NCBI RefSeq assembly: GCF_002007645.1
Contig: NZ_CP019791.1
Location: 186,001 to 250,000 of the forward strand
Origin: Anaerohalosphaera lusitana
GTDB lineage: Bacteria > Planctomycetota > Phycisphaerae > Sedimentisphaerales > Anaerohalosphaeraceae
Direction of reading: 5' to 3'
Length of the DNA: 64,000 bases
A program made the translations under genes and the position numbers. A model generated the notes under the pieces. The model did not search any database. It worked only from the letters and a program-made list of their open reading frames with translations, and was not told the origin of the DNA. Below, piece after piece: positions 27,349 to 51,296 of the stretch; positions within the stretch are counted from its first letter, which is position 1, and every line of letters starts with the position of its first letter.

Positions 27349-27446
27349 AGGTGTCATGGCCAGCCAGCGCATGTAGCTGCGCAGCCCAGCAACAAAAACC
27401 ACCTGCCACCACCGTAACCTTTCGAACCAACACTCACAAATCTTCC

Positions 27447-30752: not shown

Positions 30753-30858
30753 AATTCCCCCAGCAAACAAAATCTCGCCATCAATCCAACCGCATCAGCC
30801 AACCCGTAGGATAGGCCATGCCCACGCAAACGCAACGCCAGCCGCACCATCACCCCGC

Positions 30859-31095
30859 CCGTCATCCGCCGCAGGCGGACCCATACAACATAACGAGCAC
30901 ACATGCACGCCCAAAACAGCATCCAGCCAACGTGCCCACCAAAACAACCATGGCGAAAACGCGAGCGGCGCCTAAGGTTGTCACCCCGGACTTGATCCGG
31001 GGCCCAGAGAACATAACGAGCACACATGCACGCCCAAAACATCATCCGCCAGACGCGTCCAAAACAATAATCATGGCGCAAAATGCGAGTGCCCA
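30859..31095 (+). repeat. Two tandem polar intergenic repeats
   Basis: Copy 1 (about 30859-30960) has the TCATCCGCCGCAGGCGGACC core, copy 2 (about 30979-31095) the CACCCCGGACTTGATCCGG core. Both share the tail ACATAACGAGCACACATGCA, GCCCAAAACA and CATGGCG. They fill the gap between the AsmA-like gene and purD. Confidence 0.85.
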
Positions 31096-31111
31096 CGCAA
31101 CGCCAGCCGCA

Positions 31112-32389
31112 CTACCGCAGCGCCTTCCAGCCAATATCCCGCCGACAGTACGCATCCTCAAACGCAATCTTATCCACAGCCGCATACGCCCGCGCCTGCG
31201 CCGCCTTGAGATCATCCCCAAGCGCCGTCACACCAAGCACACGTCCGCCGTTCGTCACGATCTTGCTTCCGCCCTCCGCAGTCGCCGTCCCCGCATGGAA
31301 CACGACGACATCCTCCATCGCGCCTGCATCGTCCAGCCCGCCGATCTCCTTGCCCTTCACGTAAGGCCCCGGATACCCGCCCGACGCCATCACCACACAT
31401 ATCGCAGGCCGCTCGTCCCAGCCCATATCCACCTCGTCCAGCCGACCGTCACAAACCGCCAGCATCACCTCCAGCAGATCACCCTTCATCCGCATCATGA
31501 TCGGCTGCGTCTCCGGATCGCCGAACCGCACATTGAACTCCAGCACCCTCGGCCCGCCCTTGGTCAGCATGATACCCGCGTACAGCACACCCTTGTAAGG
31601 CGTCCCGTTACGCGCCATCCCCGCAACCGTCGGCACCAAAACCTCGCGCACGATCTGATCCATCACCTTATCCGTCACGATCGGCGCCGGACTGTACGCA
31701 CCCATCCCGCCGGTATTCTCACCCGTATCACCCTCGCCCACAGCCTTATGATCCTGCGAGCTCTCCATCACGAAAATGTTCCGCCCGTCCACGAACGCCA
31801 GTATCGACGCCTCCTCGCCCAGCAGCTTCTCTTCCACGATTATCTTCTCGCCCGCCTCCCCGAACGCCTTCTCGACCATGATCTTCTCCGCCGCCAGTAT
31901 CCCGTCCGAAGGCTCGTCGCAAACGATCACGCCCTTGCCCTTCGCCAGCCCAGCCGCCTTGATAACCACAGCCTCGTCCCGGCTGGCGATGTACGACTTC
32001 GCATCCGCAAAATTCGTGAACGTCCTGCTCTCAGCCGTCGGTATCGAGTTCGCCCGCATGATCTCCTTCGCGAACACCTTGTCCGCCTCCAGCTTCGCAG
32101 CCGCCTTGCTCGGCCCGAACGCCTTGATTCCCCCCGCCTCGCACGCATCAACCAGCCCGTCCGCCAGCGGATCCTCCGGCCCGACCACCACCAGCCCGAC
32201 CGAATTCTTCTTCGCCCAGCCGACAACCGCATCATGATCGTTCACATCCAGATCCACGTTGATACCGACCCCAGCCGTCCCCGGGTTCCCAGGCGAAATA
32301 AACAGCCTGCCAAGCTTCTTGCTCTGCTTCAACTTCCACGCGATCGCATGCTCACGACCACCACTGCCAATAACCAAAACGTTCATCAT
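31112..32389 (-). CDS. purD: Phosphoribosylamine-glycine ligase
   Basis: PurD joins 5-phosphoribosylamine and glycine with ATP in the second step of purine synthesis. The 425-residue protein begins MMNVLVIGSGGREHAIAWKL (either Met could start) and has GNPGTAGVG, VVGPEDPLADG, the ATP-grasp domain with VVIKAAGLAKGKGVIV, and the GARS signature-type segment FNVRFGDPETQPIM. The C-terminal domain ends near residue 425, the normal length. It is flanked by repeat arrays on both sides and has no operon partner in the window. Confidence 0.95.
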   Translation of the reverse strand: MMNVLVIGSGGREHAIAWKLKQSKKLGRLFISPGNPGTAGVGINVDLDVNDHDAVVGWAKKNSVGLVVVGPEDPLADGLVDACEAGGIKAFGPSKAAAKLEADKVFAKEIMRANSIPTAESRTFTNFADAKSYIASRDEAVVIKAAGLAKGKGVIVCDEPSDGILAAEKIMVEKAFGEAGEKIIVEEKLLGEEASILAFVDGRNIFVMESSQDHKAVGEGDTGENTGGMGAYSPAPIVTDKVMDQIVREVLVPTVAGMARNGTPYKGVLYAGIMLTKGGPRVLEFNVRFGDPETQPIMMRMKGDLLEVMLAVCDGRLDEVDMGWDERPAICVVMASGGYPGPYVKGKEIGGLDDAGAMEDVVVFHAGTATAEGGSKIVTNGGRVLGVTALGDDLKAAQARAYAAVDKIAFEDAYCRRDIGWKALR

Positions 32390-32462
32390 ATTTCCTTAAA
32401 ACCTGTCAATATTCCAATACTCAATAACAACCAACCGCACTATCGACCGCATCACTAACATT

Positions 32463-33172
32463 TGTCATCGCGAGGAGCAAAGCGACGCGGCGATCCCAAC
32501 GCCAGCGTCGACCAAGATTGTCATCCGCCGCAGGCGGACCCAGCATATAACAAACGCCGCCAAATGCGGCCTCCATATTTCTCACATCATCCGCCCGCCG
32601 AACCACCCGACGATCACGCATGCACGCTCACAAACGCATGCAGCCAACCAAAAACGCCAACGTCGACCAAGATTGTCATCCGCCGCAGGCGGACCCAGCA
32701 TAAACAAGCCGTCGCGCAGCGACTCCTTGCGAGCACACACGCAACGCCTGCCGCATCACCTCCACCACGCTAATATTTTGTCATCGCGAGGAGCAAAGCG
32801 ACGTGGCGATCTCAAGCGTTCAACAAAGGCGGCCCGTTCTTGCCGGCAAAAACACCTGCAAAACCGCCAGCCGACACAAACCAAAACAATACCACAACCA
32901 CCCCCAATTCTCAAGCAATCTTTACCCCCCAAAAGCAACGCTTCGCTGTCATCAGCCTCGCCAATCGCAAACACCTCTCCCTGTCATCCCGGACCCCGAT
33001 CCGGGATCCAGCATGAAAAAGCCGTCGCGAAGCGACTCCCTTGCCAGTCCCCCCGTAACACCAGCCGCATCACATGTCAACCGCCAGCCTAACATAAAGT
33101 ATGTCATCCGCCTGAGGCGGACCCAGAGAACACCACGATCACGCATACACGCTCACCAACGCATGCAACCCA
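32463..33172 (+). repeat. Dense array of polar intergenic repeats
   Basis: Six units that begin TGTCATC start at 32463, 32519, 32674, 32779, 32982 and 33102. Three core types alternate: CGCGAGGAGCAAAGCGAC, CCGCCGCAGGCGGACC or CCGCCTGAGGCGGACC, and CCCGGACCCCGATCCGGG. Tails include AGCCGTCGCG-AGCGACTC and GCATGCACGCTCAC. All point the same way. The stretch has no credible gene; it separates purD from the pseudopilin gene. Confidence 0.88.
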
Positions 33173-33337
33173 CAAAACTACGAGCAGCGACCCACCTGCC
33201 CAAAAAATCACCTAAACCCGCCCCCAGATCCAGCCGATATAACCGCGCAACCGGACCATAACACCAGAATTGACCGCAAAAAGACTGGAAAATAACCGTT
33301 AACCGGCACAAATGCTACATAATCGGCGGGGCCGAAA

Positions 33338-33868
33338 ATGAAACATACAAAAACAAATGCGAATAAAACCGATAAAGGCTTCACCCTCATAGAGCTGATG
33401 ATCGTCGTCTCCATCCTCGGAATCGTCTCAGCCATCGCCTTCCCAACATTCAAGGACCACGTCGCACAGGCAAAAGAAGCCGCCGCAAAAGACAACCTCA
33501 GGGTCCTCCGCGAAGCAATTAACCGATACGCAATACAGCACAAAGACGTACCCCCAGGCTACGCAAACAGTGACCCCTCAAATACACCCAATGAACTCGC
33601 CTTCGGCTTTCAGATGATCAAAGCATCGACTGAGGATGGGGCCCTGTCAAATCCAGGCACCGCTGGTTACCCTTACGGCCCTTATTTGCCGGAAATACCA
33701 ACCAATCCATTCAATGGACTTTCAAGCGTAACTGTCCTCACAGACACAGATTCTTTCCCCTCGCCCCCGCCTGAAGATACCGGCTGGATATATAAACCAC
33801 TCATTAAAGAAATCCGTCTCAACACAGCAGGAACGGATTCACAGGGCAAGAGTTTCTATGATTATTGA
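33338..33868 (+). CDS. Type II secretion/type IV pilin-like prepilin
   Basis: Pseudopilins assemble below the outer membrane for type II secretion or pilus growth. The 176-residue protein has a short basic leader (MKHTKTNANKTDKG), the prepilin peptidase site G-FTLIELMIVVSILG with the conserved Glu5, and a long N-terminal helix that becomes polar near VAQAKEAAAKDNLRVL. The globular part includes GYLP-type and NPFNG segments that resemble the GspG major pseudopilin. No secretion or pilus gene is beside it, so it is a stand-alone member, common in planctomycetes. It ends 7 bp inside the 3' end of the convergent lipoprotein gene. Confidence 0.85.
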   Translation: MKHTKTNANKTDKGFTLIELMIVVSILGIVSAIAFPTFKDHVAQAKEAAAKDNLRVLREAINRYAIQHKDVPPGYANSDPSNTPNELAFGFQMIKASTEDGALSNPGTAGYPYGPYLPEIPTNPFNGLSSVTVLTDTDSFPSPPPEDTGWIYKPLIKEIRLNTAGTDSQGKSFYDY

Positions 33869-34422
33869 TCTTCCCCATCATCCGCCGCTTTCTTAAAAAC
33901 CAGTTGCTTAACCTGTGTTTCGCCAGGTTCCTGAAGTGGCATACCCTCCTCATTACCCGTGGTGTAAGCCACGTATTGCGGCATAGTAATCCAGTCCACG
34001 TTCCATCTTTGACCATCCTCACTTACGACCCCAGCTAGTATTTCCGTCAAATGTCCTTCGAGGTAACCGCCCCCGATCTCAACATGCAGGTCTTCAATGA
34101 CTATTTCTACAGTAACTTCCTCACTATCAGAATCATACTGAACAGTCCACTCCCCGGCCTCCAGTCTGCTTGACTTACCTTTTTTCATTTCATATGTCTT
34201 AGTCTGCCCAGGCTCAATTTCGAAGCGTCCCAGTGCAAGCACCGCTGACGGGATCTCTCCATCATTTTCGAAGGTAATCTCCCAACCTGTATCGATGTTC
34301 GACCAAGTCCCAACCATCTGTTCTGGAAATACAGCACCTTCAGGAAGAATCACATTCATTGAATGGGATGCACAACCACTAATGACAGTGCAAAACAGGA
34401 CAATTATTGACAATCTAAGCAA
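33862..34422 (-). CDS. Putative lipoprotein, unknown function
   Basis: The TTG at 34422 is the likely start: GGAGAG lies six bases upstream and the product then begins with a lipoprotein signal (LLRLSIIVLFCTVISGC, lipobox ISGC). An ATG 33 codons upstream would bury this signal. The mature protein of about 170 residues has a beta-rich body with GTWSNIDTGWEITFENDGEI and acidic stretches, as in small lipocalin-like or META-type lipoproteins, similar in style to the lipoprotein at 1621-2244. No function known. It overlaps the end of the pseudopilin gene by 7 bp. Confidence 0.6.
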   Translation of the reverse strand: MLRLSIIVLFCTVISGCASHSMNVILPEGAVFPEQMVGTWSNIDTGWEITFENDGEIPSAVLALGRFEIEPGQTKTYEMKKGKSSRLEAGEWTVQYDSDSEEVTVEIVIEDLHVEIGGGYLEGHLTEILAGVVSEDGQRWNVDWITMPQYVAYTTGNEEGMPLQEPGETQVKQLVFKKAADDGEDQ

Positions 34423-34654
34423 GTCAATCTCTCCAATGCAACAGTTAAAACGAAAACTTTTTAGAATCAACATTTTACTGCAAGCCCTTTTGAGACGCAA
34501 GATTTCAATCCCTGGTAACAACTTTCATGCGAACATTCCATACTTTGTGCCTCCCATGATTCTAGCCAAACACGATAGTACATACACGCAAGAAACGATA
34601 GATATGAAAAGGCTCTCTTTGCATTTAGCTTCAGGTCATCCTCTTTTAGATGAT

Positions 34655-35914
34655 CTAGTTGATTTCAAGACAATCACCTTCAAGATCGTAGTCATCCTTC
34701 CAGTTGGCGGTAAGTATGTTCAAGTCATTAACTCCTACTCGGTAATAGCCAGTAAACGGACTGCCCTCTACCTTGTGATCAAAGTCCGCCGCTATCCACG
34801 GATGCGTCGCAGGATCAGAATAGTGAGTTTGTTTCCATCCGTTGATCAAAAGGTTCAAGTCATTGACTCCTACATGATAAAATCCACCGAACGGACAACC
34901 CTCGACTCCGCCATCCGCATCACCCTCACACTGATACTCATTACACCAGCTCTCGGGTCTGCCGACTTCCATCCATGTATTATAATCCGGATGTTCAGCA
35001 GGGAAGCATTCAATCTCTTCCGCAGATGATTGAAGTGACAGAATGATAAGTCTGTCATCCAGACACTCCCCAGTTACATTCGTATCGTCTTTCCAGTTTG
35101 CGATCAATATATTCAGATCATTGACACCCACTCGATAAAACCCCGTAAATGGGCTGCCTTCTTCGGCGTGGTCAAAATCTGCAGCAATCCAGGGATCAGT
35201 AGCAGGATCTACATAATTTGTATCTTTCCACCCCCAAACTAGCAAGTTCAGATCGTTGACACCTACTCTATAGTAACCCGTAAATGGACTGCCCTCTGTT
35301 AGTCCATCTGAATCACCTTCACACTGATACTCATTACACCAGCTCTCCGGCATGCCCACACTAACCCATTCCCCATAATCAGGGTGCCCGCAGGGAAAAC
35401 AACCACATCCCGTCCCAAACTGAAAAGGCAGATTTGTAGTCATAGCATCCCCGTTTTGGTCGACAATTCCACCCCGAATTGCGTTTATGTCGATCTCACC
35501 AGACACCGATGTTCCACTGCCCAAAATGATTCCTGTCCCATCCGTCTCACCTTCCAGATGAGCCACACTAATACAAAAACTCGAATTGGGCAACGTTGTA
35601 GTGCCCGGAAACGCTTGAGGAGCAATTGGGCTACCCAACTGATTTGGACTCAGAGCCCCATCATATAAAGTCGGATCAGAATGCGCCGCATCAGGGAACA
35701 CATCAAAATATGAATCGATCTGAACACTGCCAATCTGCCCCTCTATACAATCGACGTTCAAGGCCATCCCAACGATCTCCGTATCAGGCTTATTGATCGT
35801 CCATGACAGGGTCCCCGTCCCGTCACCATTGTCGGTTAGCTTAAAATCCACATCCACCCCGAAGCTAACACCCGCTGCAGCCAATACTATGATAAGAGCA
35901 AACAGTCTCTTCAT
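34655..35914 (-). CDS. Secreted protein with two pairs of dockerin-like repeats
   Basis: Protein of 419 residues with signal MKRLFALIIVLAAAGVSFG. Residues about 20-180 are beta-rich (LSWTINKPDTEIVGMALNVD, FCISVAHLEGETDGTG) and match the paralogue at 36760-37629 along their full length. After that come two successive modules, each with EW(V/M)-GMPESWCNEYQCEGD and a pair of dockerin-like calcium loops (VGVNDLNLLVWGWK, AADFDHAEEGSPF, VGVNDLNILIANWKDD). The paralogue has one such module, so an internal duplication has occurred here. Dockerin-type ends bind cohesins or anchor proteins in other bacteria; in this organism the partner is unknown. Cell-surface or extracellular role inferred. Confidence 0.75.
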   Translation of the reverse strand: MKRLFALIIVLAAAGVSFGVDVDFKLTDNGDGTGTLSWTINKPDTEIVGMALNVDCIEGQIGSVQIDSYFDVFPDAAHSDPTLYDGALSPNQLGSPIAPQAFPGTTTLPNSSFCISVAHLEGETDGTGIILGSGTSVSGEIDINAIRGGIVDQNGDAMTTNLPFQFGTGCGCFPCGHPDYGEWVSVGMPESWCNEYQCEGDSDGLTEGSPFTGYYRVGVNDLNLLVWGWKDTNYVDPATDPWIAADFDHAEEGSPFTGFYRVGVNDLNILIANWKDDTNVTGECLDDRLIILSLQSSAEEIECFPAEHPDYNTWMEVGRPESWCNEYQCEGDADGGVEGCPFGGFYHVGVNDLNLLINGWKQTHYSDPATHPWIAADFDHKVEGSPFTGYYRVGVNDLNILTANWKDDYDLEGDCLEIN

Positions 35915-36043
35915 ACCTGCCTCCTGAATTTAAGCATCATTTACAGCTACTATAATACATAAATACTTGCACGTATACAAGACAAAAATGACTTTTTCTT
36001 CCATCACGTCTCCAAGCTGGCTGTTAATCGAAAGTCGCGCAGC

Positions 36044-36073
36044 AAAAAACCCCGAACCGAACAGGGCCCGAGG
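36044..36073 (-). terminator. Intrinsic terminator after the PEP-CTERM gene
   Basis: On the minus strand a 9-bp stem (CCTCGGGCC with GGTTCGGGG, three G-T pairs) and a 6-base loop, followed by six T (36044-36049). Confidence 0.65.
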
Positions 36074-36132
36074 TTCAAAATTCGAAAAGCCGAAGGGCTC
36101 ATCACCCTCATCTGGATTGTAGAGACATAAGA

Positions 36133-36160
36133 AGAGGCAAGCCTCGAAAGGCTTGCCTCT
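36133..36160. terminator. Perfect hairpin, probable terminator or processing site
   Basis: AGAGGCAAGCCT (36133-36144) and its exact complement (36149-36160) around a CGAA tetraloop, 28 bp after the PEP-CTERM stop codon. There is no clear T-run, so it may stabilise the 3' end of the mRNA, with termination at the next hairpin. Confidence 0.6.
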
Positions 36161-36188
36161 GGGGAAAACTTCTAACTAAGCCGGGTTC

Positions 36189-36674
36189 TTACTTACGGCG
36201 ACGGAGGAAAAGACCACCGATACCGAGAAGACCCAACGTCATTGGCTCAGGTACTACATTTACTGTAGATGTGCTGATGGGGCTAAAACCAGAGTTGTAC
36301 AGAGTCAGAGTAGCAGTGCCTTCAGCTGCACCTGTCAGACCAAACTCAAAACCAGTGCCAGGTGTCAGAGCATCTGTTACACTAGTATCAGAGTTTGTGA
36401 ATGCCCAGAAGCTGCCATCGCCATACGTACCGTAGAAGGTAGTAGTAGAAGCAGGAACAGTAATGTCTGTCATCGTGTCGTCACCAGACCAAACTGCTGC
36501 ACCACCCAAGTCAACTGAGATATAACCATCATACTGCAGGCCATCATCAGATACGATCTGAACCGTAACTGTGTCGCCAACCTGAATTTCTTCCGGAGCA
36601 ACAACGCTGAGACCAGCTGCTGCCATAGAGCCAATACCAAGAACCAAAGCCAAAACCATTAACTTCTTCATCAT
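36189..36674 (-). CDS. PEP-CTERM sorting-signal protein
   Basis: Exported protein of 161 residues. The start at 36674 follows AAGGAG by five bases and gives the signal MKKLMVLALVLGIGSMAAAG. The body is beta-rich and Thr/Ser/Gly-rich. The C-terminus has a PEP-CTERM signal: VVPEPMTLGLLGIGGLFLRRRK, with the PEP motif, a hydrophobic helix and an Arg/Lys end. Such proteins are processed by an exosortase and placed at the surface or in extracellular matrix. The exosortase is not in this window. It lies between two paralogous genes for secreted dockerin-like proteins on the same strand. Confidence 0.88.
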   Translation of the reverse strand: MMKKLMVLALVLGIGSMAAAGLSVVAPEEIQVGDTVTVQIVSDDGLQYDGYISVDLGGAAVWSGDDTMTDITVPASTTTFYGTYGDGSFWAFTNSDTSVTDALTPGTGFEFGLTGAAEGTATLTLYNSGFSPISTSTVNVVPEPMTLGLLGIGGLFLRRRK

Positions 36675-36759
36675 TAAATCTCCTTCATGCATTTTAGAGT
36701 TTCTGTTCTTCGCCATATCCTAACACAGAGTATGACTTACAAACAACTTACAATTTCAA

Positions 36760-37629
36760 CTACTGTACATCAAGACATGTACCTGTCAGGTTTGTATCGT
36801 CCTTCCAGTTGCTGATAAGGATATTGAGGTCCTCTACACCAACCCTGTAGTAACCAGTGAAGGGGCTACCTTCTTCAGCGTGATCGAAGTCAGCTGCAAT
36901 CCAAGGATCAGTTGCAGGATCAACATAATCAGTGTCTTTCCAACCAGCAATCAGGATATTCAGGTCTTCAACACCAACCTGATAGTAACCAGTGAAGGGG
37001 CTACCTTCGCGAGCACCGTCAGCATCACCTTCACACTGATAATCGGTTACCCAGCTCTCGGGAGAACCAACTGCAACCCACTCGTCATAATCTGGGTGAT
37101 CTACAGGGAATCCACCTGGTTGGGCAATTGAGAACGCAATTGGCAGGTTAGTTGTCAGAGCGTCGCCGTTCTGATCTACAACACCACCGCGAGTTGCGTT
37201 TACGTCAAGCTGACCTTCAGCACCAGCTCCACTTGTCAGAACAATACCGGCACCGTCAGTTGTGCCTTCGAGGTGACCAACGCTGATAGCAAAGCTTGCG
37301 TTAGGCAGAGTTGTTGTGCCTGCAGAACCCTGCAGAGCTACTGGTGTACCAAGCTGACCAGGAGCGGTTGCACCGTCATACAGCGTAGGATCAGAATATG
37401 CTGCATCGATGAATACATCGAAGAACGAATCAACTGCAACTGCATCGACTGTGCCAGTTGTAGCGTCAACATTCAGGCCCATACCGACGATTTCGGTATC
37501 AGGCGCATTGATTGTCCACGACAGGGTACCTGTGCCGTCACCATTATCGGTAAAAGCAAAATCTACGTCCGCTGCGAACGTCGGCACTGCCATAGCCAAA
37601 ACGACCAAACACATAGCTAACTTTTTCAT
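36760..37629 (-). CDS. Secreted protein with one dockerin-like pair, paralogue
   Basis: Protein of 289 residues with signal MKKLAMCLVVLAMAVPTFA. Its beta-rich first part (LSWTINAPDTEIVGMGLNVD, FAISVGHLEGTTDGAG) and its end (VGVEDLNILIAGWK, AADFDHAEEGSPFTGYY, VGVEDLNILISNWKDD) match the 419-residue protein at 34655-35914. The Asp/Asn positions in the repeats fit two calcium-binding loops of a dockerin-like module. A good promoter lies 133 bp upstream. Expression and secretion together with the PEP-CTERM protein downstream are likely; function unknown. Confidence 0.78.
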   Translation of the reverse strand: MKKLAMCLVVLAMAVPTFAADVDFAFTDNGDGTGTLSWTINAPDTEIVGMGLNVDATTGTVDAVAVDSFFDVFIDAAYSDPTLYDGATAPGQLGTPVALQGSAGTTTLPNASFAISVGHLEGTTDGAGIVLTSGAGAEGQLDVNATRGGVVDQNGDALTTNLPIAFSIAQPGGFPVDHPDYDEWVAVGSPESWVTDYQCEGDADGAREGSPFTGYYQVGVEDLNILIAGWKDTDYVDPATDPWIAADFDHAEEGSPFTGYYRVGVEDLNILISNWKDDTNLTGTCLDVQ

Positions 37630-37761
37630 GAAACACCTTCCTTTCTCTTTTTCTCTCTTTCTCTACAACTCCAAGAGCAACGCACCCTTCGAGCCTCTCT
37701 ATTAGTGTTGAAAGCCCCGGTTACTGTTATCCAGCTTCCGGAGTATTGCTTTCATGATTGA

Positions 37762-37790
37762 ATAATACTAATTTGGCAACCTAAATGCAA
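37762..37790 (-). promoter_or_regulatory. Sigma-70-type promoter of the secreted-protein cluster
   Basis: Read on the minus strand: TTGCAT (37790-37785), 17 bases, TATTAT (37767-37762). It lies about 130 bases upstream of the dockerin-like gene, leaving a long leader that contains a small hairpin. Confidence 0.6.
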
Positions 37791-38244
37791 GTCAAAAAGT
37801 TTTCGGCCTTAACAGGATAATGTGAATTTTAGCAGATTTTCACCGCCAATCGCACTATCAGTACTGTTATGGGCCCTGCACCCGGAAAAACCCCTTTTAT
37901 AAGCCTTAAGAGCGATTATTTATCGGGCGTTACAGACGGTAATTTTACCCGGTTTCTGCAAAAATTTCTATACCCTGCAGAATTTTTTTCCTTCGAAATC
38001 GCAAACCACCACCCCCAAACAAGGCAAATCCCCCCAAAATCCGGCCCCAAACCCCTATATCTCACCTGCCAAGAACCCTGAAACCGACAATTTTATGGGC
38101 CCAACCCCACCAAACACACAAGCAAAGCCTGATTCGCAAGCAACCGCGAAACGCCAACCGCACCCTATTGCCATCCGCCCCAGCCGGCCTCCACATTTTC
38201 CACATAATTCCCCAGCCGGCCTCCGTCCCACCCCGCTAACTTCT

Positions 38245-38492
38245 TGTCATCGCGAGGAGCGAAGCGACGTGGCGAACTCAAAGCCGACGGCCTCCAACAG
38301 CACATCCAAAACACAAAAACCAGCCGCCTGTCATCCGCCTGAGGCGGACCCAGAGAACACCACGAGCACGCATGCACGTACAAAACAGCATCTCGCCAAC
38401 GAGCTCAGCAACGCAAGCAACGCCAAATGTTGTCATCCCGGACCCCGATCCGGGATCCAGCATAAAAAAGCCGTCGCGAAGCGACTCCTTCC
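38245..38492 (+). repeat. Three polar intergenic repeats
   Basis: Units start TGTCATC at 38245 (CGCGAGGAGCGAAGCGAC core), 38329 (CCGCCTGAGGCGGACC core, tail CCAGAGAACACCACGAGCAC) and 38431 (CCCGGACCCCGATCCGGG core, tail AGCCGTCGCGAAGCGACTCC). These are the last copies in this orientation; from 41.2 kb on, all are inverted. Confidence 0.88.
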
Positions 38493-39043
38493 TGTTGACC
38501 ACCCAAACCAACCGCATCCGTGAACTATGACGCATTTAAACCGCAAAAACGCCCCTAGCCAACACAAAAACGAGCAGCGCCTAAGCTGCGAGTGACCACG
38601 CAACGCCCGCCACAAACCTTATATAAATGCTTGAACCGCGAAATTCCGCCATATAACTTACTATAAAGGCTTGCATCCCGCTGCACACGCATGCAGATCA
38701 ACCAACCCGGCCTATTTCCGCCACTCAAGAACCACACCGGCGAACAAAAACCGCCCGAATACGCGAAATTCCATTTTTCTGCCCGCAAACGCACATTTTC
38801 TGCCGATCTATATTATAAGGACAGAATAAAAATGACCCCGACCAACGACCGCTGCAGCCGCTCATATACCCCGAAAAAACCGTTATGAGAGTTTCGCAGG
38901 GTGATTTGCTGGGTCAAAACGGTGTTTTTACGCTCTACTTCCGATTCCCTAAGTCATTGCTGCATAGACACTTACCTGCAGGCCAGTTTAGATGACGGGT
39001 TTTTGTTTAGAAATTGCGCCCTGAATTTGTAATATGTATCCCC
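38493..39043. other. Gene-free skew-switch region, candidate replication origin
   Basis: No gene is visible. Up to about 38,880 the + strand is C/A-rich (the row at 38701-38760 has 9 G and 25 C); from 38,881 on G becomes equal or higher (17 G and 10 C in 38881-38940; 21 G and 13 C in 39061-39120). Two near-direct repeats, TATAAATGCTTG (38622) and TATAAAGGCTTG (38662), and two copies of GCGAAATTCC (about 38638 and 38763) lie here. I see no TTATCCACA-type DnaA box in this stretch, so the origin call rests on composition only. Confidence 0.45.
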
Positions 39044-40291
39044 ATGAAAAGTTTTCTGCACGGACGTCTGGTAATAGTACGGCTGATCATGCTGGCGGCG
39101 ATGCTTTCGCTGGTAGCGATCGGCATAGCCACGATCTACGCCAGCGGCCACCCCGCTGAGGTGGACGAGGCGAGCAAATACGCCGGCGCGTGGAAGAAGC
39201 AGGCCGTGTACGCGGCCGGGGGAATGATGGCGTTCATTTTCGTTAACCTCTTTGACTACCGCAAGTTAGGGCCGCTGAGCTACTGGCTCTACGGCGGCAT
39301 TTTAGCGGTCCTTGCGGTGCTGCTGCTTGGTAAACGGATGGACATTCCGTTCGTGCCGGTGATCAACGGTACCTGCCGATGGATACGCCTGGGAATAGGG
39401 TCGCGGTTCGTGCAGGTACAGCCGTCGGAATTCTGTAAGATCATATATATACTGGCTTTAGCGTGGTATTTGCGGTTCCGTAAGAACTACCGCCAGTTCC
39501 ACGGCCTGATAGGACCGTTCGCGCTGACACTGCTGGCGATGGTGCTGATACTCTTCGAGCCTGATCTGGGCACGGTTCTGCTGATGATGCCCATACTTTT
39601 TTCCATGCTGTACGTAGCGGGCGCGAAACCGAAACATCTGTTAACCATTGTGGCGCTTGGAGTTATAAGCTTTCCGTTTCTGTGGGGTCACATGAACCAC
39701 TACCAGCGCCAGCGGATTAGCTGCGTGCTGCTGCAGAGCGATTATATGAAGGACCTGGCGCAGAAAAATGGGCGGGTTGCGGAGGTGCTGACTGGTAATG
39801 ACAGGTTCAATCCGAAGGCGTGGGAGCGGGGCAACGGCTGGCAGCTAAAGCACAGCAAACTTGCCATAGCTTCAGGCGGCATAAAGGGTTACGGCTGGCG
39901 CAAGGGGCCTTATATCAAGTATAACACCCTGCCTGAGAGACACAACGACTTCATATTCGCGATCATTGCACACCAGTGGGGGTTGATCGGATGCGCGGTG
40001 GTTCTGGGGCTGTATGCGGTGCTGATAGGGTGTGCGAACGAGATCGCGTGGGCGAATACGGACGCGTTCGCGCGGCTTGTGACGGTGGGGATCATGGCGA
40101 TGTTTACTGTTGAGGTAATCGTTAACATCAGTATGACACTGGGTTTAATGCCGATAACTGGTTTGACTTTGCCGTTCGTGAGCTACGGTGGATCGAGCCT
40201 GGTGGTGAGCATGATGGCGGTGGGACTGCTGAACAATATCGGGCGCGAACGGCCGTTCAGTGTTGCGGGCCGAGCGTTTGAGAATGTTTGA
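39044..40291 (+). CDS. FtsW/RodA/SpoVE-family peptidoglycan polymerase
   Basis: SEDS proteins polymerise glycan strands from lipid II in cell division (FtsW) or elongation (RodA). The 415-residue protein, from the ATG at 39044, has about ten transmembrane helices and the family motifs: VQPSEFCKI, the catalytic-site FEPDLGT, LPERHNDFIFAIIAHQWG and the closing GLTLPFVSYGGSS. A region of about 80 residues between helices (HYQRQRISCVLLQ to SGGIKGYGWRKG) matches the large extracellular loop. FtsW against RodA cannot be settled by eye and no partner PBP is adjacent. It is the first gene right of the skew switch and points away from it. Confidence 0.93.
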   Translation: MKSFLHGRLVIVRLIMLAAMLSLVAIGIATIYASGHPAEVDEASKYAGAWKKQAVYAAGGMMAFIFVNLFDYRKLGPLSYWLYGGILAVLAVLLLGKRMDIPFVPVINGTCRWIRLGIGSRFVQVQPSEFCKIIYILALAWYLRFRKNYRQFHGLIGPFALTLLAMVLILFEPDLGTVLLMMPILFSMLYVAGAKPKHLLTIVALGVISFPFLWGHMNHYQRQRISCVLLQSDYMKDLAQKNGRVAEVLTGNDRFNPKAWERGNGWQLKHSKLAIASGGIKGYGWRKGPYIKYNTLPERHNDFIFAIIAHQWGLIGCAVVLGLYAVLIGCANEIAWANTDAFARLVTVGIMAMFTVEVIVNISMTLGLMPITGLTLPFVSYGGSSLVVSMMAVGLLNNIGRERPFSVAGRAFENV

Positions 40292-40358
40292 TCGTACGAT
40301 GTAACATCATTTTATAACTGCACTTACGTTCAATCTAAATGACATCTTGGGGTGAGGA

Positions 40359-40772
40359 TTATAGGAGGCCGAAGTTTTCTTTTTCTGTGAGGACGACCCA
40401 TGGGCGCTGGTCGGTTTTTTGGATTGTACGGGGCGGGATCTTTTTTATGTCTTTGAGCCAGATGAGGGTGGCGTAATTTGCGTTTTCGCGGGCGGCCCAG
40501 TAGGTGTCTGGGCCCTGTATCTCGTTGTTATAGCAGGACTTAAGTTCGCGGATGCGGGCGGGGGTGAGATTTTCTTCGGTATGGACGCGGGCGACGGTGG
40601 CGGTGGCGAGGACGGGGCCGGAGGATTGCTTTAAGTACAGTGTATGGCCGGACTTAACGCAGCCAAAAGGTGCTCGGCGGTCCTTTGTGAGGCGGAATTC
40701 GACGGTTTTGCTGCCTGCGAGGATGGCTGCGAGGTATGGGCGTTTGAGGATTACTAAATGGGCGGTTTTCAT
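40359..40772 (-). CDS. ASCH/PUA-like domain protein
   Basis: Protein of 137 residues with the look of an ASCH (PUA-like) domain: LVILKRPYLAAILAGSKTVEFRLTKDR at the N-terminus, with the conserved small-Lys-x-x-Glu-x-Arg pattern, then GHTLYLKQSSGPVLATATVARV. Such domains bind RNA or modified nucleotides and some process RNA or act as N4-acetylcytidine amidohydrolases. The C-terminal third (YWAARENANYATLIWLKDIKKI) may close the domain. Convergent with ftsW/rodA. Specific function unknown. Confidence 0.65.
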   Translation of the reverse strand: MKTAHLVILKRPYLAAILAGSKTVEFRLTKDRRAPFGCVKSGHTLYLKQSSGPVLATATVARVHTEENLTPARIRELKSCYNNEIQGPDTYWAARENANYATLIWLKDIKKIPPRTIQKTDQRPWVVLTEKENFGLL

Positions 40773-41180
40773 GGGGGCATTATAGCGGGGGAAATGTGCA
40801 TGTGCAATGTCTATTTGGGGCTAAAATCCTGGATATTCGGCCCCATATGCGGGATTGGAGGGGCGGACGGGTTAGGGTGCAATACTCAGTCGAATCTGGG
40901 AATCGCCCCAGTGAAAGCATTGGTAAAGTTACCAGATGGACACCTGGTAAATAAGACATTGGCTGAAATCGGCTGTTTTTGGGCGTTTTTCGGGGGTGAA
41001 AAGTTGGGCAAAAGTAGGGTAAAACTTAGAAGAAACGGGGTAAAAGTAAGCAAAGATGGGGTGAAAATGGGTAAAAGTTGACAGGCTGTTTCCTACCTGT
41101 CAAGTGGGAGAAACGGGTTGGGGAAGGGGTCGCCACGAAGGCACGAAGAGCACTAAGAAAGTGAAAAATGATAGAAGAAG

Positions 41181-41233
41181 GAGGACGCTGCGCGACTCTA
41201 ATTTATGCTGGGGTCCGCCAAAGTCGGATGACA
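41181..41233 (-). repeat. Polar intergenic repeat, inverted orientation
   Basis: Complement of the left-side copies: GGACGCTGCGCGACTC, then TATGCTGGGGTCCGCC, then CGGATGACA. It is the first inverted copy to the right of the skew switch. Confidence 0.75.
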
Positions 41234-41569
41234 TAATGGGTATTGAAGTACTGGTTAATGGTGCAGGAGTTGGACGTTGGGAGGAGCAAGTATTGTGATG
41301 TGAAAGTTGGGCCGCCGCAGAATTTAACAGCACCGCCTCCGACGAACTTTCCGCTGAGTCCATTCTCGGCGAACTTTTTTCATTAATATTATGCGGCTGG
41401 TGGGTGCGGAAATGGTCGGGGTTGTTGGGATGTTGATTTTGGTTGGCTGAAGTTTTGTGATGATCTTATGTTTGGGCTTGACAGTTTGGGGTGTGCAGGT
41501 GGGTTTCAACCATGGGGCCGCTGACGTGGGTTAAGGTGTGCGAGACAGATAAGTCCTTGTTAATAAAGC

Positions 41570-41599
41570 ACTTATGAACATATTAAAGGTGTCTGACCC
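41570..41599. repeat. Short repeat, inverted copy 2
   Basis: ACTTATGAACAT (41570-41581) and GTGTCTGACCC (41589-41599) are the reverse complement of the pair at 15440-15470. It lies just before the 86-codon gene at 41641. Confidence 0.5.
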
Positions 41600-41640
41600 T
41601 TTTTATTTATTTAATTGGTATTTTTTTTAGTGAGGACGAA

Positions 41641-41901
41641 ATGGAATTTAAGAGTTCGGTTGAAGTTGCGGATGATGCTATCAGAAAGATGAATGAGCGG
41701 ATCACTGATGAGGTATTTCTTACTATTCAGAATGACCGGGAGCTGATGGGGGCCTATTTGCGGGCTGTTCAGGAAGAGGGGCTGGATCGGGTTAATCAGA
41801 CGGTCGGGCGTGCGGTGAAGAAAGCTTACGGGCTGGAGAACAAGGAGCGGGAGGGTGAGCCGGAGAGTACGCTTATACGGAGCCATATGATGTTTGAGTG
41901 A
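41641..41901 (+). CDS. Small acidic helical protein, unknown function
   Basis: Unrecognised soluble protein of 86 residues. It begins MEFKSSVEVADDAIRKMNER and appears all-helical, with many Glu, Asp and Lys, and ends STLIRSHMMFE. A GAGGAC site lies four bases before the ATG. Composition and codon use are protein-like, unlike the noise frames around it. The setting between repeat elements gives no clue to function. Confidence 0.5.
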   Translation: MEFKSSVEVADDAIRKMNERITDEVFLTIQNDRELMGAYLRAVQEEGLDRVNQTVGRAVKKAYGLENKEREGEPESTLIRSHMMFE

Positions 41902-41949
41902 TGGATTTTTGTGCTATGGACGATGTATCGATAATGTAGAGTTGCGGTT

Positions 41950-42133
41950 ATTGTGGTCGTGCATGCGCGCCCGTTGTGTTCTCTGGGCCCCGGATCAAGT
42001 CCGGGGTGACAGATGTTAGTTAAGCGTGATGTTTGTTGGCGCTATGGACGTGGTGCTTTGGTGTTGGGTTGTGGTTGTTTTGTGCGTGCATGTGTGCTCG
42101 TTATGTTCTCTGGGTCCGCCAAAGGCGGATGAC
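41950..42133 (-). repeat. Two inverted polar intergenic repeats
   Basis: Unit 1 (about 41950-42011): GCATGCGCGCCCG, GTTCTCTGGG, then the CCCCGGATCAAGTCCGGGG core and TGACA. Unit 2 (about 42066-42133): GTTGTTTTGTGCGTGCATGT, GTTCTCTGGG, the GTCCGCCAAAGGCGGATGAC core. Both are inverted relative to copies left of 38.5 kb. Confidence 0.8.
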
Positions 42134-42358
42134 GGCGGGAGGCGTTTGCGGCTGGCGTTTGGTTCTCTGGGGCTGGCTTAGGCGGATGACAGGCTTTGGT
42201 GGTGCGGGTTTTTGTTACCCATGTGCCCGGTTTGAAGTGTTACCCATGTTAAGGTTGAAATACGTGGGCCGGGGTGACAGCATGGGGTTGATTCGGTATA
42301 ATGTTCGGCGTTGGAGCTTTAATGAGCTTGGCAGATGCTGCTGTTTATAGGAGGCGGG

Positions 42359-42643
42359 GTGAAGTCATATTTCGTTTACATACTGGCGAGTAAGCGGAAC
42401 GGGACGCTTTATGTGGGGGTGACGAATAATCTGCGGCGGCGGATGTGGGAACATAAGAACGGGCTTGCGGAGGGGTTTACACGGGCGTGGGGTGTTGGTC
42501 GACTGGTTTATTTCGAACGGTTCGATCATGTGGACTGTGCGATCCGGCGGGAGAAGCAGTTGAAGAAGTGGCGGAGGCGGTGGAAGCTGGAGCTTATCGA
42601 GAAAGATAATGCGGGGTGGGAAGATCTGGCGGAGCGGTTTTAG
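42359..42643 (+). CDS. GIY-YIG nuclease-domain protein (YhbQ/UvrC-like)
   Basis: Small single-domain member of the GIY-YIG superfamily. The motif pair is YFVYILASKRNGTLYVGVTN (Y-V-Y and Y-V-G), with the catalytic-site Arg in NLRRRMWEHKNG, a conserved Tyr in RLVYFERFD and the Glu/Lys region AIRREKQLKKWRRRWKLELIE. The GTG at 42359 lies close after AGGAGG and starts the domain directly; an ATG eight codons upstream is the alternative. These proteins cut branched or damaged DNA in some cases, and many copies lie in repeat-rich intergenic DNA, as here between two pairs of polar repeats. Confidence 0.85.
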   Translation: MKSYFVYILASKRNGTLYVGVTNNLRRRMWEHKNGLAEGFTRAWGVGRLVYFERFDHVDCAIRREKQLKKWRRRWKLELIEKDNAGWEDLAERF

Positions 42644-42689
42644 TTTCGTTAGGGGTGTCTTTTTAGGGCCATGAACGTTGTGCTTTAGA

Positions 42690-42886
42690 TGTTGGGTTGC
42701 GATTATATTGTAGGTGCATGCGCACCCGCCATGTTCTCTGGGTCCGCCTGAGGCGGATGACAGTATGGGGTTGTTGCTTGTTTTGTTATGGCGCCATGGG
42801 CGTTTTGTTTTAGATGTTGGGTTGTGGTTGTTTTGGGCGTGCATGTGTGCTCGTGGTGTTCTCTGGAGCCGCCTGAGGCGGATGGC
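42690..42886 (-). repeat. Two inverted polar intergenic repeats
   Basis: Units at about 42690-42762 and 42815-42886, each with TAGATGTTGGGTTG, GCATGTGTGC or GCATGCGCAC, GTTCTCTGG and the CCGCCTGAGGCGGATG core. They lie between the GIY-YIG gene and the dnaK terminator. Confidence 0.85.
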
Positions 42887-42942
42887 GGGGGTTGCTATAT
42901 GGAGGCGGCTTGCTTGGGGGTGGAGTGGTAATATGTGGTGAT

Positions 42943-42981
42943 AAAAATGAAGGGCCGGGGAGTGGAGTCCCTCGGCCCTTC
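42943..42981 (-). terminator. Intrinsic terminator after dnaK
   Basis: On the minus strand AAGGGCCGAGGGACTCC folds on CTCCCCGGCCCTT (about 42950-42981) and is followed by CATTTTTATC. Confidence 0.75.
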
Positions 42982-43021
42982 TTCTATTTGTAATCGACGT
43001 GCAGCTCTTTATTATGGTGAG

Positions 43022-44974
43022 CTACTGTTCGTCGTTTGCCTCGAACTCGGCGTCGATTACGTCGTCGCCGCCCTTGCGTTTGGTTTCGCCTGGTTCGGGC
43101 TGTGGCTGTTCGCCTGCTGGGCCTGGCTGGCCCTGAGCGGCCTGCTGCTGTTTTGCAGACTCTTCGTAGAGGACCTTGCCGAGCTCCTGCGAGGTTTGCT
43201 GCAGGTTGTCGATGGCCTTTTTGATCGCGTCGCCGTCGTCGCCCTTCTGTGCTTCCTTGAGGTTGTTGACAGCTTCTTCGATCTTCGAGCGGACATCGGC
43301 AGAGACCTTTTCGCCGTGTTCCTTGAGCGTCTTTTCGGTGGTGTAGACGAGCTGGTCGGCCTGGTTCTTGAGCTCGATGACCTCGCGTCGGCGTTTGTCT
43401 TCTTCTGCGTGGGCCTCGGCGTCTTTTGTCATCTTTTCGATGTCATCTTCGTTGAGGCCCGAGCTGGATTCGATCTTGATGGACTGTTCCTTGCCTGTGC
43501 CGAGATCCTTGGCCGATACGTTGAGGATGCCGTTGGCGTCGATGTTGAATGAGACTTCGATCTGCGGCAGGCCTCGCGGTGCGGGCGGGATGTCGGTCAG
43601 TTGGAAGCGACCGAGCGTTCGGTTGTCGCGTGCGAATTCGCGTTCGCCCTGGAGGACGTGGATGTCGACGCTGGTCTGGTTGTCGGCTGCGGTCGAGAAG
43701 ACTTCCTTTTTGCTTGTCGGGATGGTCGTGTTGCGTTCGATCAGTTTTGTCATGACGCCGCCGAGCGTTTCAACGCCGAGAGAGAGCGGAGTCACGTCGA
43801 GCAGGAGGATGTCCTTTACGCCTGCATCGCCTGCGAGTACCGCACCCTGGATGGCAGCACCGAGCGCTACGACTTCGTCGGGGTTTACGTTCTTGGACGG
43901 ATCCTTGCCGAAGATATCCTTTACGATCTCCTGGACCTTCGGGATACGTGTCGAGCCGCCGACGAGGAGAACTTCGGCGATGTCAGAGCCGGACATGCCC
44001 GCGTCTTGCAGCGCCTTGTGGCAAGGCTGCTTGAGACGTTCGAAGGTGTCTTCTGCGAGGGCCTCGAACTTTGAGCGTGTGATGGTCATCTGCAGGTGTT
44101 TGGGGCCTGACTGGTCGGCGGTGATGAAGGGCAGGTTGACGTTTGTCTCCATCTGTGTGGAGAGTTCGCACTTTGCCTTTTCCGCGGCTTCCTTGAGGCG
44201 CTGATGTGCCATTGGGTCGTTGCGGAGGTCGATGCCTTCGGTCTTTTTGAACTCGTCGGCGAGGTGGTTCATCATTATTTCGTCGAGGTCATCGCCGCCG
44301 AGGTGACCGTCGCCGTTGGTTGCGAGTACTTCGATGACGGAGGACTGGTCCTCGAAGCCGCCGATGTCGAGGATTGAGACGTCAAACGTGCCGCCGCCGA
44401 AGTCGAAGACTGCGACTTTTTCGTCCTTTTTCTTTTCAACGCCGTATGCGAGTGCGGCTGCTGTTGGTTCGTTGATGATACGCTCGACCTTGAGGCCGGC
44501 GATCTTACCGGCGTCCTTGGTTGCCTGGCGCTGAGCGTCGTTGAAGTATGCGGGGACGGTGATGACGGCCTGGTCGACGGTTTCGCCGAGGTAGTCTTCG
44601 GCGGTCTTTTTGAGGTCCTGGAGGACCATGGCCGAGATCTCGGGCGGTGTGTATTCCTTGCCGCGAGCCTTTACTTTTACGAGTTCGCCCTGGTCGCCTG
44701 TTACTTCGTAGGGGACGAGCTTTTCTTCTGAGGAAACTTCGCTGTGGCGGCGACCCATGAATCTCTTGATCGAGAAGATGGTGTTCTGGGGGTTTGTCAC
44801 CTGCTGGTGTCGTGCGGTCTGGCCGACGAGACGTTCGCCCTTGTCGGTGAATCCGACGACGGAGGGGGTGAGGCGTGAGCCGGATGCGTTTACGAGCACC
44901 TTCGGGTTGGAGCCTTCCATAACGGCTACAACGGAGTTAGTAGTACCTAAGTCAATTCCAATAATCTTACCCAT
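43022..44974 (-). CDS. dnaK: Chaperone DnaK (Hsp70)
   Basis: DnaK binds exposed hydrophobic segments of client proteins in an ATP cycle with DnaJ and GrpE. The 650-residue protein starts [21 protein letters not shown] and has the Hsp70 signatures [24 protein letters not shown] and [14 protein letters not shown]. The substrate-binding domain includes the linker-type [14 protein letters not shown]. The end has the Gln/Pro/Gly-rich spacer and the highly conserved acid tail [12 protein letters not shown]. No dnaJ or grpE lies next to it, and I see no CIRCE inverted repeat upstream. It is convergent with nothing and ends at a strong hairpin. Confidence 0.98.
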
Positions 44975-45212
44975 ATAAATTACTCCCTGAATCTGCTTTG
45001 ATTTCTGAGTTGTTTCGAGATTTCTGTTTGCTTTCGTTTTCTGCAGATATTTTGTGCAAAGGGCGTGCCAGAAGAGGTAGATACGGCTAAGTAGTGCTAT
45101 GGGCGGGACTTAGGTGGTTGACGCTTTTGGGGAGCGGGGGCTGTCATTGTGTCATATTGGCAGAGGCGCGGTGTCGTTCTGTCGTATGGGCGGTGTGAGT
45201 GGGAAATATAAA

Positions 45213-45393
45213 AGGAGTCGCTGCGCGATGGCTGTTTTATGCTGGATCTACCTATAAGGCGGGTGGCAAGCTGGGTCGCCGCCCGCACTTTTGCGCCATG
45301 ATTGCTCTGAGGGACGCGTTGGCGTGATGCTGCCGCGATAGTGCATGTGTACTCGTCACGTTCTCTGGACCCCAAATCAAGTTTGGGGTGACA
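45213..45393 (-). repeat. Inverted polar repeats between dnaK and mcsB
   Basis: AAGGAGTCGCTGCGCGATGG and TATGCTGGATCTACC (45213-45272), then GCGCCATGATTG, GCATGTGTACTCGTCACG, GTTCTCTGG and the CCCCAAATCAAGTTTGGGG core with TGACA (45293-45393). The rest of 44975-45407 must also hold the dnaK promoter, which I could not identify with confidence. Confidence 0.8.
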
Positions 45394-45407
45394 AATGGAG
45401 GCGGGGG

Positions 45408-46463
45408 TCAGGCGGTGGTTAGTTTTTCGCGGATGATGTTTGCGCGCATTACGTCGCGGTCGTCGGGGGTGAGTGTTTTGCGAGCGTTCAGTTGGAGGTG
45501 GGCCGGCTGGGTGAGCATGAAGAGCTCGTTTACGTCGGTGATGGAGAGGTTTGGGAGTTTGCCGAGGTTTACGCCGAGGCGGAGGTGGCTGAGGAGGAAT
45601 AGGGCCTCCTGGGAGCTGATCAGGCGTGCGCTTCGGAGGACGCCGAGGGCTCGCTGGACCTTGTCGTCGAGGACGGCGGGTCGGGAGCGGAGGAGTTCTT
45701 CGCGGGCTGCGGATTCGTAGGCGACGATCTGGGGGACGATGGCTGTGGCGAACTGGTCGACGATCTCCTGTTCGGAGAGGCCGAGGGTGACCTGGTTGGA
45801 GAGCTGGAAGAAGTCGCCGGTGGCTTCGGTGCCTTCGCCGAAGAGGCCGCGGACGGCTAGGTCGAGGTCGCGGGCGGCGTTGAAGAATTTGTCGAGCTGG
45901 CGGGTCATTTTGAGTGCGGGCAGGTGGAGCATGACGGAGACGCGGATGCCGGTGCCGAGGTTGGTTGGGCATGCGGTGAGGTAGCCGTATTTGGGGCTGA
46001 AGGCATAGTCGAGGTGTTTTTCGAGCTGGTCGTCGATGCCGTCGATGCGCTGCCAGCACTGCTGGAGCTGGAGGCCGGTCTTGTAGACCTGCATGCGGAG
46101 GTGGTCCTCTTCGTTGATCATTGCGGCGAAGGATTCGTCTTCGCTGAGGACGAGGCCGCGGGGGCCGGTGCCGTTGGCGTGGCGTCGGCTGATGAGGTGG
46201 CGTTCGACGAGGAGTTCGCGTTCGAGGTCGGTGGCGGATGCGATGTCTATGTACGAGGTTCGGCAGTCGAGGTCGATGCCCTTGAGTTCGGCGGTGAGCT
46301 TGTTGAGTATCTCGGACTTGCGGTCGGAGTCGAGGCACGGGAGGAACTGGAAGCCCGCGAGGTTGCGCGCAAGGCGGACACGTGAGGAAATAACGATCTC
46401 TGATTGAGGCCCTGGGGTGTTGAACCAGGTGCTTGTGTGTTTACTCAGGTCGGCTAAATTCAT
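45408..46463 (-). CDS. mcsB: Protein arginine kinase McsB
   Basis: McsB phosphorylates arginine residues of proteins and marks them for ClpCP degradation in Bacillus. The 351-residue protein has the phosphagen-kinase fold: VISSRVRLARNLAGFQF near residue 26, the ATP and guanidino-site motif TACPTNLGTGIRVSVML with the signature Cys-Pro-x-Asn, and SNQVTLGLSEQEIV. The length is standard. It overlaps the upstream mcsA by the four bases ATGA, so the pair is translated together. Neither ctsR nor clpC is next to it in this window, unlike the Bacillus operon. Confidence 0.93.
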   Translation of the reverse strand: MNLADLSKHTSTWFNTPGPQSEIVISSRVRLARNLAGFQFLPCLDSDRKSEILNKLTAELKGIDLDCRTSYIDIASATDLERELLVERHLISRRHANGTGPRGLVLSEDESFAAMINEEDHLRMQVYKTGLQLQQCWQRIDGIDDQLEKHLDYAFSPKYGYLTACPTNLGTGIRVSVMLHLPALKMTRQLDKFFNAARDLDLAVRGLFGEGTEATGDFFQLSNQVTLGLSEQEIVDQFATAIVPQIVAYESAAREELLRSRPAVLDDKVQRALGVLRSARLISSQEALFLLSHLRLGVNLGKLPNLSITDVNELFMLTQPAHLQLNARKTLTPDDRDVMRANIIREKLTTA

Positions 46464-46969
46464 TGCAGATGGTTGATCTTGTCCCTAATTTCGGCGGCGG
46501 TTTCGTAATCTTCGAGTTTGACGGCTTCTTCGAGTCGGCGGCGGAGGTTTATAAGTTCGATCTGTGTTTTGTTGTCTTCGGGTATGTGTTCGGGGACCTT
46601 GCCGGAGTGGGTTGTTCGGCCGTTCTGTGTTTTTTCGATGAGCGGGTTTAGCTGGTCCTCGAATGCTTCGTAATCGTGGGGGCAGCCGAGTAGGCTTTCT
46701 TTTTTGAAGCGGTCGAGTGTCATGCCGCATGCCGGGCAGGTTGCTGAGCCGAGGTCGGCGTCTTCTGCGGCGGCGGTGAGCTCTTCTTTTGCTTCGGGCT
46801 GGGATGCGAGAAGCGTGCTGAGCAGTTCGTTGAGCGGGATCTGGGCCTTTACGGAGAGGCCCTGCTGCTGGGCACAGTCCTCGCAGAGGTGGGTTTCGCT
46901 TCGCTGGCCGTTGCTTATTTCGGTCAGGTGTATTGTGGCCATATTCTGTTTACAGAGTTGACATTGCAT
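46460..46969 (-). CDS. mcsA: McsA: zinc-finger activator of McsB with UVR domain
   Basis: McsA binds zinc and activates McsB. The 169-residue protein has MQCQLCKQNMATIHL and THLCEDCAQQQG (two C-x2-C pairs), then CPACGMTLDRFKK and a last GCPHDYEAF in which the second Cys of the usual fourth C-x2-C is replaced. The C-terminal UVR motif LINLRRRLEEAVKLEDYETAAEIRDKI fits proteins that contact Clp or UvrB partners. It precedes mcsB with an ATGA overlap. The loss of one zinc ligand is real in this reading and may weaken the last finger. Confidence 0.92.
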   Translation of the reverse strand: MQCQLCKQNMATIHLTEISNGQRSETHLCEDCAQQQGLSVKAQIPLNELLSTLLASQPEAKEELTAAAEDADLGSATCPACGMTLDRFKKESLLGCPHDYEAFEDQLNPLIEKTQNGRTTHSGKVPEHIPEDNKTQIELINLRRRLEEAVKLEDYETAAEIRDKINHLQ

Positions 46970-47147
46970 TGAGTTGCCCCATTTAAAATCGTTAGATCAG
47001 TGTCGTTTTGTCACTGTAAATTGTATCGGCAAAAGATGAAAGGGGTTTGCACAAATATGCCGGAGTTGTGGAAAAACGGCTCGTTTTCAGCAGAGATCAT
47101 GTATTCAGGCCTCCTTTTATCATGGTAATAATGTCCGGAAGGTGCTT

Positions 47148-47519
47148 TTAGTTATCGGGGCGGTATCTGGCCCAGCAGTTGTGCTCTTCCATGACCTCAG
47201 TATAGTCGAGGTGGACGCGGGAGGGCAAGAGTTGGGTGAGGGAGTCGTGTATATATTTTGCGACGAGTTCGGCGGTGGCGCCGGAGTCGGGGAAGTCTGT
47301 GAGCTGTTCGAGTATCTTGTTGGATATGGGCCTGAGGATGCTGGTAAGTTTTTTTTTGAGGTCGATGAAGTCGATGGCCATGTTGTTTTGGTCGAGGTCG
47401 TGGGAGGAGACGGCGACCCGGACGCGCCAGTCGTGGTGGTGGGGCTTTTCCTGTTGGCCGTCGGGCATGGTGACGGCGTGGGTTGCGACGAAGTTCTGTT
47501 CGATAGTTATAGCATACAT
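47148..47519 (-). CDS. 6-pyruvoyl/6-carboxytetrahydropterin synthase family (QueD-like)
   Basis: Protein of 123 residues of the PTPS/QueD family. The zinc histidines are FVATHAVT and HHHDWRVRV, and the fold continues with MAIDFIDLKKKL, GATAELVAKYI and EVMEEHNCWARY (the conserved Glu). QueD makes 6-carboxytetrahydropterin for queuosine and other deazapurines. The catalytic cysteine, normally several residues before the His-x-His pair, is absent; the segment is PDGQQEKPHHHDW. It may therefore catalyse another pterin reaction or none. No other queuosine gene is nearby. Confidence 0.82.
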   Translation of the reverse strand: MYAITIEQNFVATHAVTMPDGQQEKPHHHDWRVRVAVSSHDLDQNNMAIDFIDLKKKLTSILRPISNKILEQLTDFPDSGATAELVAKYIHDSLTQLLPSRVHLDYTEVMEEHNCWARYRPDN

Positions 47520-47801
47520 ATTTCACCTCCGGTTCATATAGCTAATCATACATACATCAAAGAATGTTGCAAGTTAATTGGTTCGGGAAATTTGGGTTTT
47601 TGTCTTTTGCAGATGAGCCCGATAAGTTTGAACACAGCTATACAAATGCAGAATCAGCCTCAAGCCGTGTGACTAATGAAACACCAAAAAGTTGCCTGCA
47701 AAACTCTTGATTTTACAGCGTTTTTTTGGTAAGATATAGTTAATTCAGCTTGAAGTTTCAGCCGCATTCACGGGTTCTACGAATTATTTAGGAAAGAGGA
47801 A

Positions 47802-49730: not shown

Positions 49731-49795
49731 GGCGCTATTCTCATGCTGTTTTGCTTTTCGGCGGACGAGTGTTGCGAGCGTGTAGAGGATGTGGT

Positions 49796-51265: not shown

Positions 51266-51296
51266 CGCTGTCTCCTGATATAGTTTATTGTTTACT

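Follow-up and report, generated by a model that had tools for sequence, protein, structure and literature searches.

Recurrent origin-like polarity switches along the chromosome of Anaerohalosphaera lusitana

The abrupt change in base composition found in a stretch of the Anaerohalosphaera lusitana chromosome is real, but it is only one of about 25-30 such points on this chromosome, each of which looks like a place from which DNA copying starts in both directions, although bacteria are believed to start copying each chromosome from a single place. The stretch analysed, here called the window, comprises 64,000 nucleotides (positions 186,001-250,000 of contig NZ_CP019791.1, assembly GCF_002007645.1) of a complete single-contig genome of 4,250,973 bp. 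The nearest relatives by FtsW are Planctomycetota of the class Phycisphaerae, including an Anaerohalosphaeraceae MAG at 68%. The polarity sawtooth described below is close to certain, whereas replication from many origins is inferred. The features of the window are as follows.

38870..38890, no strand: polarity switch point (contig position 224,880), with the + strand C/A-rich to the left and G/T-rich to the right.
1..38880, - strand: left polarity domain, + strand C/A-rich for both gene orientations; it would be copied mostly by leftward forks.
38880..64000, + strand: right polarity domain, + strand G/T-rich, continuing to a down-transition at about contig 257 kb, outside the window.
15422..33170, + strand: eight dispersed repeat copies of the oriented component, all + (15422-15470, 17187-17302, 18546-18638, 20891-21071, 25466-25501, 30803-31111, 32622-32840 and 32975-33170).
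38216..38618, + strand: the last two + repeat copies just left of the switch (38216-38517 and 38546-38618).
40898..42892, - strand: the first - repeat copies right of the switch (40898-41616, 41936-42210 and 42661-42892).
45206..55098, - strand: further - repeat copies (45206-45402 and 54942-55098).
39014..40291, + strand: FtsW/RodA family gene immediately right of the switch (PF01098, E=1e-82; likely start at 39044).
36760..37629, - strand: dockerin/PEP-CTERM-like gene immediately left of the switch, described from the appearance of its sequence only, without a Pfam hit.
31112..32389, - strand: purD (PF01071/PF02844/PF02843), part of the conserved gene neighbourhood left of the switch, the order being seen in the relatives' loci L143, L144 and L154.
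42335-42643: small GIY-YIG nuclease gene lying among the repeats.
16992-17099, - strand: TPP riboswitch.
24600-27000: small stretch with GC skew up to +0.11 and GC 0.45 inside the negative domain, possibly acquired DNA.

The initial annotation had described a change from negative to positive skew at about 38.9 kb, in a gene-free stretch before an ftsW/rodA gene, and this observation was confirmed. All five of its hand counts are exact (9 G/25 C in 38101-38160, 9 G/25 C in 38701-38760, 17 G/10 C in 38881-38940, 21 G/13 C in 39061-39120 and 22 G/5 C in 42781-42840). GC skew runs at about -0.1 to -0.46 over most of the left part and at +0.1 to +0.4 right of the point. A two-mean likelihood analysis placed the best change point at window 38,880 with a likelihood interval of only about 10 bp, and at neutral sites the keto skew changes from -0.30 to +0.36 (z=33 over 8 kb on each side). 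With genes called by a self-trained script, the third-codon-position skew on the + strand is negative in both gene orientations on the left (GC3 -0.30 for + genes and -0.37 for - genes) and positive in both on the right (+0.23 and +0.57), and intergenic DNA agrees. An effect of gene direction is therefore rejected.

The interpretation given in the initial annotation, a replication origin distant from dnaA with a local inversion joint as the alternative, is only partly supported. The polarity and the sharpness of the switch are origin-like, but a negative-to-positive change does not identify the origin here, because the chromosome has dozens of such changes. In all, 2.85 Mb (67%) of the chromosome was read, 0-2.165 Mb nearly completely and about half of the rest. 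The cumulative GC skew, which had been set beforehand as a test, is lowest near 421 kb and highest near 2,763 kb, with gaps interpolated, and 224 kb is only a local minimum. The switch has no cluster of DnaA boxes, in agreement with the initial annotation, which had seen no DnaA box consensus: one box with one mismatch was found within 1 kb (0.41 expected). Nor is there an adjacent dnaA, the neighbours being the dockerin-like and ftsW genes. The best DnaA-box cluster of the DNA read (six boxes with one mismatch, three of them in intergenic DNA) lies 225 kb away at contig 4250158-4250767, in and downstream of an RsmB-like gene and just before the dnaA gene at the contig start. Skew there falls gradually from + to -, so that this candidate oriC has no up-switch. 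Two full-length DnaA genes are present, at contig 1-1407 and about 470.3-471.6 kb (dnaA-type matches at 376 and 470,669), and the better Pfam match is the one at 470 kb. Most of the 20 order-level relatives searched also carry two, a lead for a second initiator. One single-contig relative of the same order has thirteen DnaA-domain matches, ten of them in reading frames of 262 aa, perhaps an IstB-like transposon family.

Comparison of 8-kb flanks at neutral sites in the DNA read gave 20 upward but only 4 downward steps of 0.4 or more, and 12 versus 2 of 0.5 or more. Total GC skew gave 17 upward and 3 downward steps of at least 0.35. At cumulative minima and maxima chosen by one rule in the near-complete 2.165 Mb, the median steps are 0.40 and 0.21, respectively (p=7e-4), and the mean profile decays over about 40 kb on either side of an up-switch. 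About 26 up-switches of at least 0.35, against 8 down-switches, appear in the DNA read, roughly one per 100-150 kb where coverage is near complete. At a low threshold (0.2) up and down steps are equally common, so the asymmetry is a matter of the large, sharp steps. The result is a sawtooth with sharp rises and slow falls, the shape described for human replication N-domains (PMC3320577). The skew is independent of gene orientation also at the jumps taken together: 0-10 kb to the right GC3 skew is +0.33 for + genes and +0.42 for - genes, and 0-10 kb to the left it is -0.43 and -0.38. Coding bases are 60-65% co-oriented with local polarity where |skew| exceeds 0.1, while the orientation of tRNAs (12 co-oriented, 11 anti) and of the single 16S gene was uninformative.

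Rearrangement, that is, a normal single-origin chromosome scrambled by many inversions with each switch as a breakpoint, is a very unlikely explanation and is strongly disfavoured at this locus. Inversions would flip skew and repeats together, but they make as many sharp falls as rises. The adjacency of the (-) dockerin-like gene and the (+) ftsW gene is conserved in 27 relatives, which excludes the local inversion joint at this locus. In the two closest (69% and 68% identity) the third positions of ftsW have a keto skew of -0.40 and -0.51 against +0.21 here, with the left gene negative in all three, so that the switch arose inside an ancestral gene order. Some more distant relatives do show an up-step at this gene pair (up to 0.43 in locus L152), so the site may have been used more than once. 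Up-steps of 0.35 were also found in the short flanks of two other Phycisphaerae relatives (loci L160 and L172), suggesting that the phenomenon may not be unique to this genome; pattern positions in one relative hint at alternating polarity on 100-kb scales, but are too sparse to count as evidence. Other switches fall inside intact genes, such as a polyprenyl synthetase at 154,980 (third-position skew -0.33 versus +0.17) and a beta-helix gene at 3,454,530 (-0.13 versus +0.32). A few sharp down-steps exist (380, 1,078 and 1,342 kb), so some real inversions are probable; one candidate for a true inversion or insertion is a segment of roughly 7 kb with reversed polarity at contig 1342.4-1349 kb. 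A fusion of many plasmid-like replicons or acquired islands, each with its own skew, is highly improbable. The domain sizes of 50-150 kb are plasmid-like, but the domains hold core genes (dnaK, purD, ftsW and leuS) and this one keeps a gene order shared with relatives.

A second, independent marker agrees with the skew. Six families of small dispersed intergenic repeats point the same way relative to local skew in 231 of 238 copies (family A 52/53, B 46/46, C 25/30, D 44/45, E 15/15 and F 49/49), although families often share sites and copies are not all independent. Among repeat pairs in strongly skewed DNA, 3,001 of 3,074 agree. In the window all ten copies left of the switch are + and all five to the right are -. 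The orientation flips within a median gap of 10 kb at up-switches and 71 kb at down-switches (p=5e-4), where the flips span 34-170 kb. As a control, paralogous tRNAs and a 559-bp IS-like repeat are not oriented in this way; the latter is found at contig 143301, 643520, 711779, 1799610 and 2975656 in mixed orientation, with about 99.6-100% identity between the copies compared. Pairs at least 95% identical agree in 76 of 90 cases, and most of the twelve exceptions that were listed involve the IS-like repeat or its fragments. The agreeing ones lie near 21 different up-switches, so many domains look active in the same recent period. The genome has a single Y1/RAYT-type transposase (PF01797; positions 1207-1878 of locus L225, contig about 4,079.8 kb), a candidate mover of the oriented repeats, but this link is inferred.

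No shared initiator motif was found at the switches. K-mer enrichment gave only skew-like words such as CCCCAAAAA, expectation-maximisation motif scores were no better than those of control intergenic sets, and inverted repeats were no stronger than in control intergenic DNA. The sequence CTAAGTCAT, seen by eye near two switches, was not shared. DnaA boxes near the jumps are at most slightly above chance (14 seen against about 8.6 expected). No archaeal-type Orc1/Cdc6 initiator was found above cut-off (PF09079), and a search for MCM gave only weak AAA+ cross-matches, which the control genomes, E. coli included, gave too. RNase HI and RecG are present, so the simple route of R-loop replication through loss of RNase HI is not supported.

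The best explanation, held with only modest confidence, is that window 38,880 is one of about 25-30 detectable fixed sites from which replication forks diverge often enough, over evolutionary time, to leave two marks: a leading-strand G/T excess that flips sharply at the site and fades over some 40 kb, and a strict orientation of small mobile repeats inserted with respect to the strand. In this view forks meet at variable places between neighbouring sites, so that polarity declines gradually. The sign, with the G/T-rich strand leading away from the switch on both sides, fits diverging forks with deamination of the exposed lagging-strand template. The analysis itself establishes the sawtooth, its independence from gene strand, the orientation of the repeats, the conserved gene order across this switch and the absence of an ordinary motif or DnaA-box cluster. 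On the other hand, it is by inference from sequence alone that the polarity is taken as fork direction, with forks diverging at the jumps, that the sites are taken as initiation sites used side by side in the present era, and that initiation is taken as independent of DnaA boxes (for example unwinding at promoters or R-loops, or an unrecognised initiator). No naturally multi-origin bacterial chromosome is established (PMC4403523). The further reading that a free-living bacterium routinely replicates its single circular chromosome from dozens of fixed, motif-poor start sites without DnaA boxes, eukaryote-like in density and turning over faster than gene order, while its DnaA-box candidate oriC leaves no polarity mark, is possible but slightly less likely than not.

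Two other explanations are unlikely but remain. In the first, some other strand-biased process spreading in both directions from fixed sites, such as long antisense transcription, supercoiling or repair synthesis, produces both the skew and the repeat orientation. The lack of an origin motif, the lack of an up-switch at the DnaA-box cluster and the position of several switches between divergent genes agree with this. However, the skew is as strong in genes transcribed against it and extends about 40 kb on each side, end resection at breaks would give the opposite sign by cytosine deamination, and the repeat orientation follows the same map. In the second, less likely still, one origin has relocated repeatedly and the switches are fossils of its former positions, with skew strongest near the origin. 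No motif remains at the sites, the present DnaA-box cluster has no switch and the two closest relatives lack the switch at ftsW, but replication skew normally spans whole replichores and not about 40 kb, and the nearly identical repeat copies that follow polarity near 21 up-switches at once suggest contemporaneous domains.

One origin per bacterial chromosome is a textbook rule, and whether natural exceptions exist is an open question (PMC4403523). Earlier claims based on skew failed because rearrangements could not be excluded, whereas here two independent polarity markers, an asymmetry that inversions cannot make and conserved gene order across a switch bear on the question. If the switches are not origins, bacteria have an unknown long-range strand-polar process, which would also be new and would warn against reading skew minima as origins. 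No report of such a pattern in this group was found in the papers searched, which did not cover most subscription journals.

Of the known systems, human replication N-domains (PMC3320577) share the abrupt upward skew jumps bordering segments in which skew declines steadily, read as gradients of fork polarity between initiation zones, but here the organism is a bacterium with a chromosome of 4.25 Mb, the domains are about 0.1 Mb instead of megabase-sized, the switches are defined to tens of bases and the fork direction is inferred. The multi-origin chromosomes of the archaea Sulfolobus and Haloferax likewise have several skew minima on one circular chromosome, but archaea use a few origins with Orc1/Cdc6 and ORB motifs, compared with about 25-30 switches, no Cdc6 above cut-off and no motif found here. 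Multiple polarity changes or several oriC-like sites have been argued from sequence alone for bacterial genomes suggested to be multi-origin (Wigglesworthia, Wolbachia and Mycoplasma pulmonis; Xia 2012, PMC3269012) or to have double oriC candidates (Gao 2015, PMC4403523); those cases could not exclude rearrangement, which is tested here by the up/down asymmetry, the conserved synteny, the switches within genes and the repeat orientation. Constitutive stable DNA replication in E. coli (oriK/R-loop initiation) is also DnaA-independent initiation at dispersed sites, but there it needs loss of RNase HI or RecG, and both families are present here. IS608/ISDra2 target the lagging-strand template (PMC6006769). 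REP elements with Y1 (TnpAREP/RAYT) transposases resemble the present repeats in that small intergenic palindromic repeats with strict strand orientation occur together with a single PF01797 gene in the genome, the connection between this transposase and these repeats being inferred.
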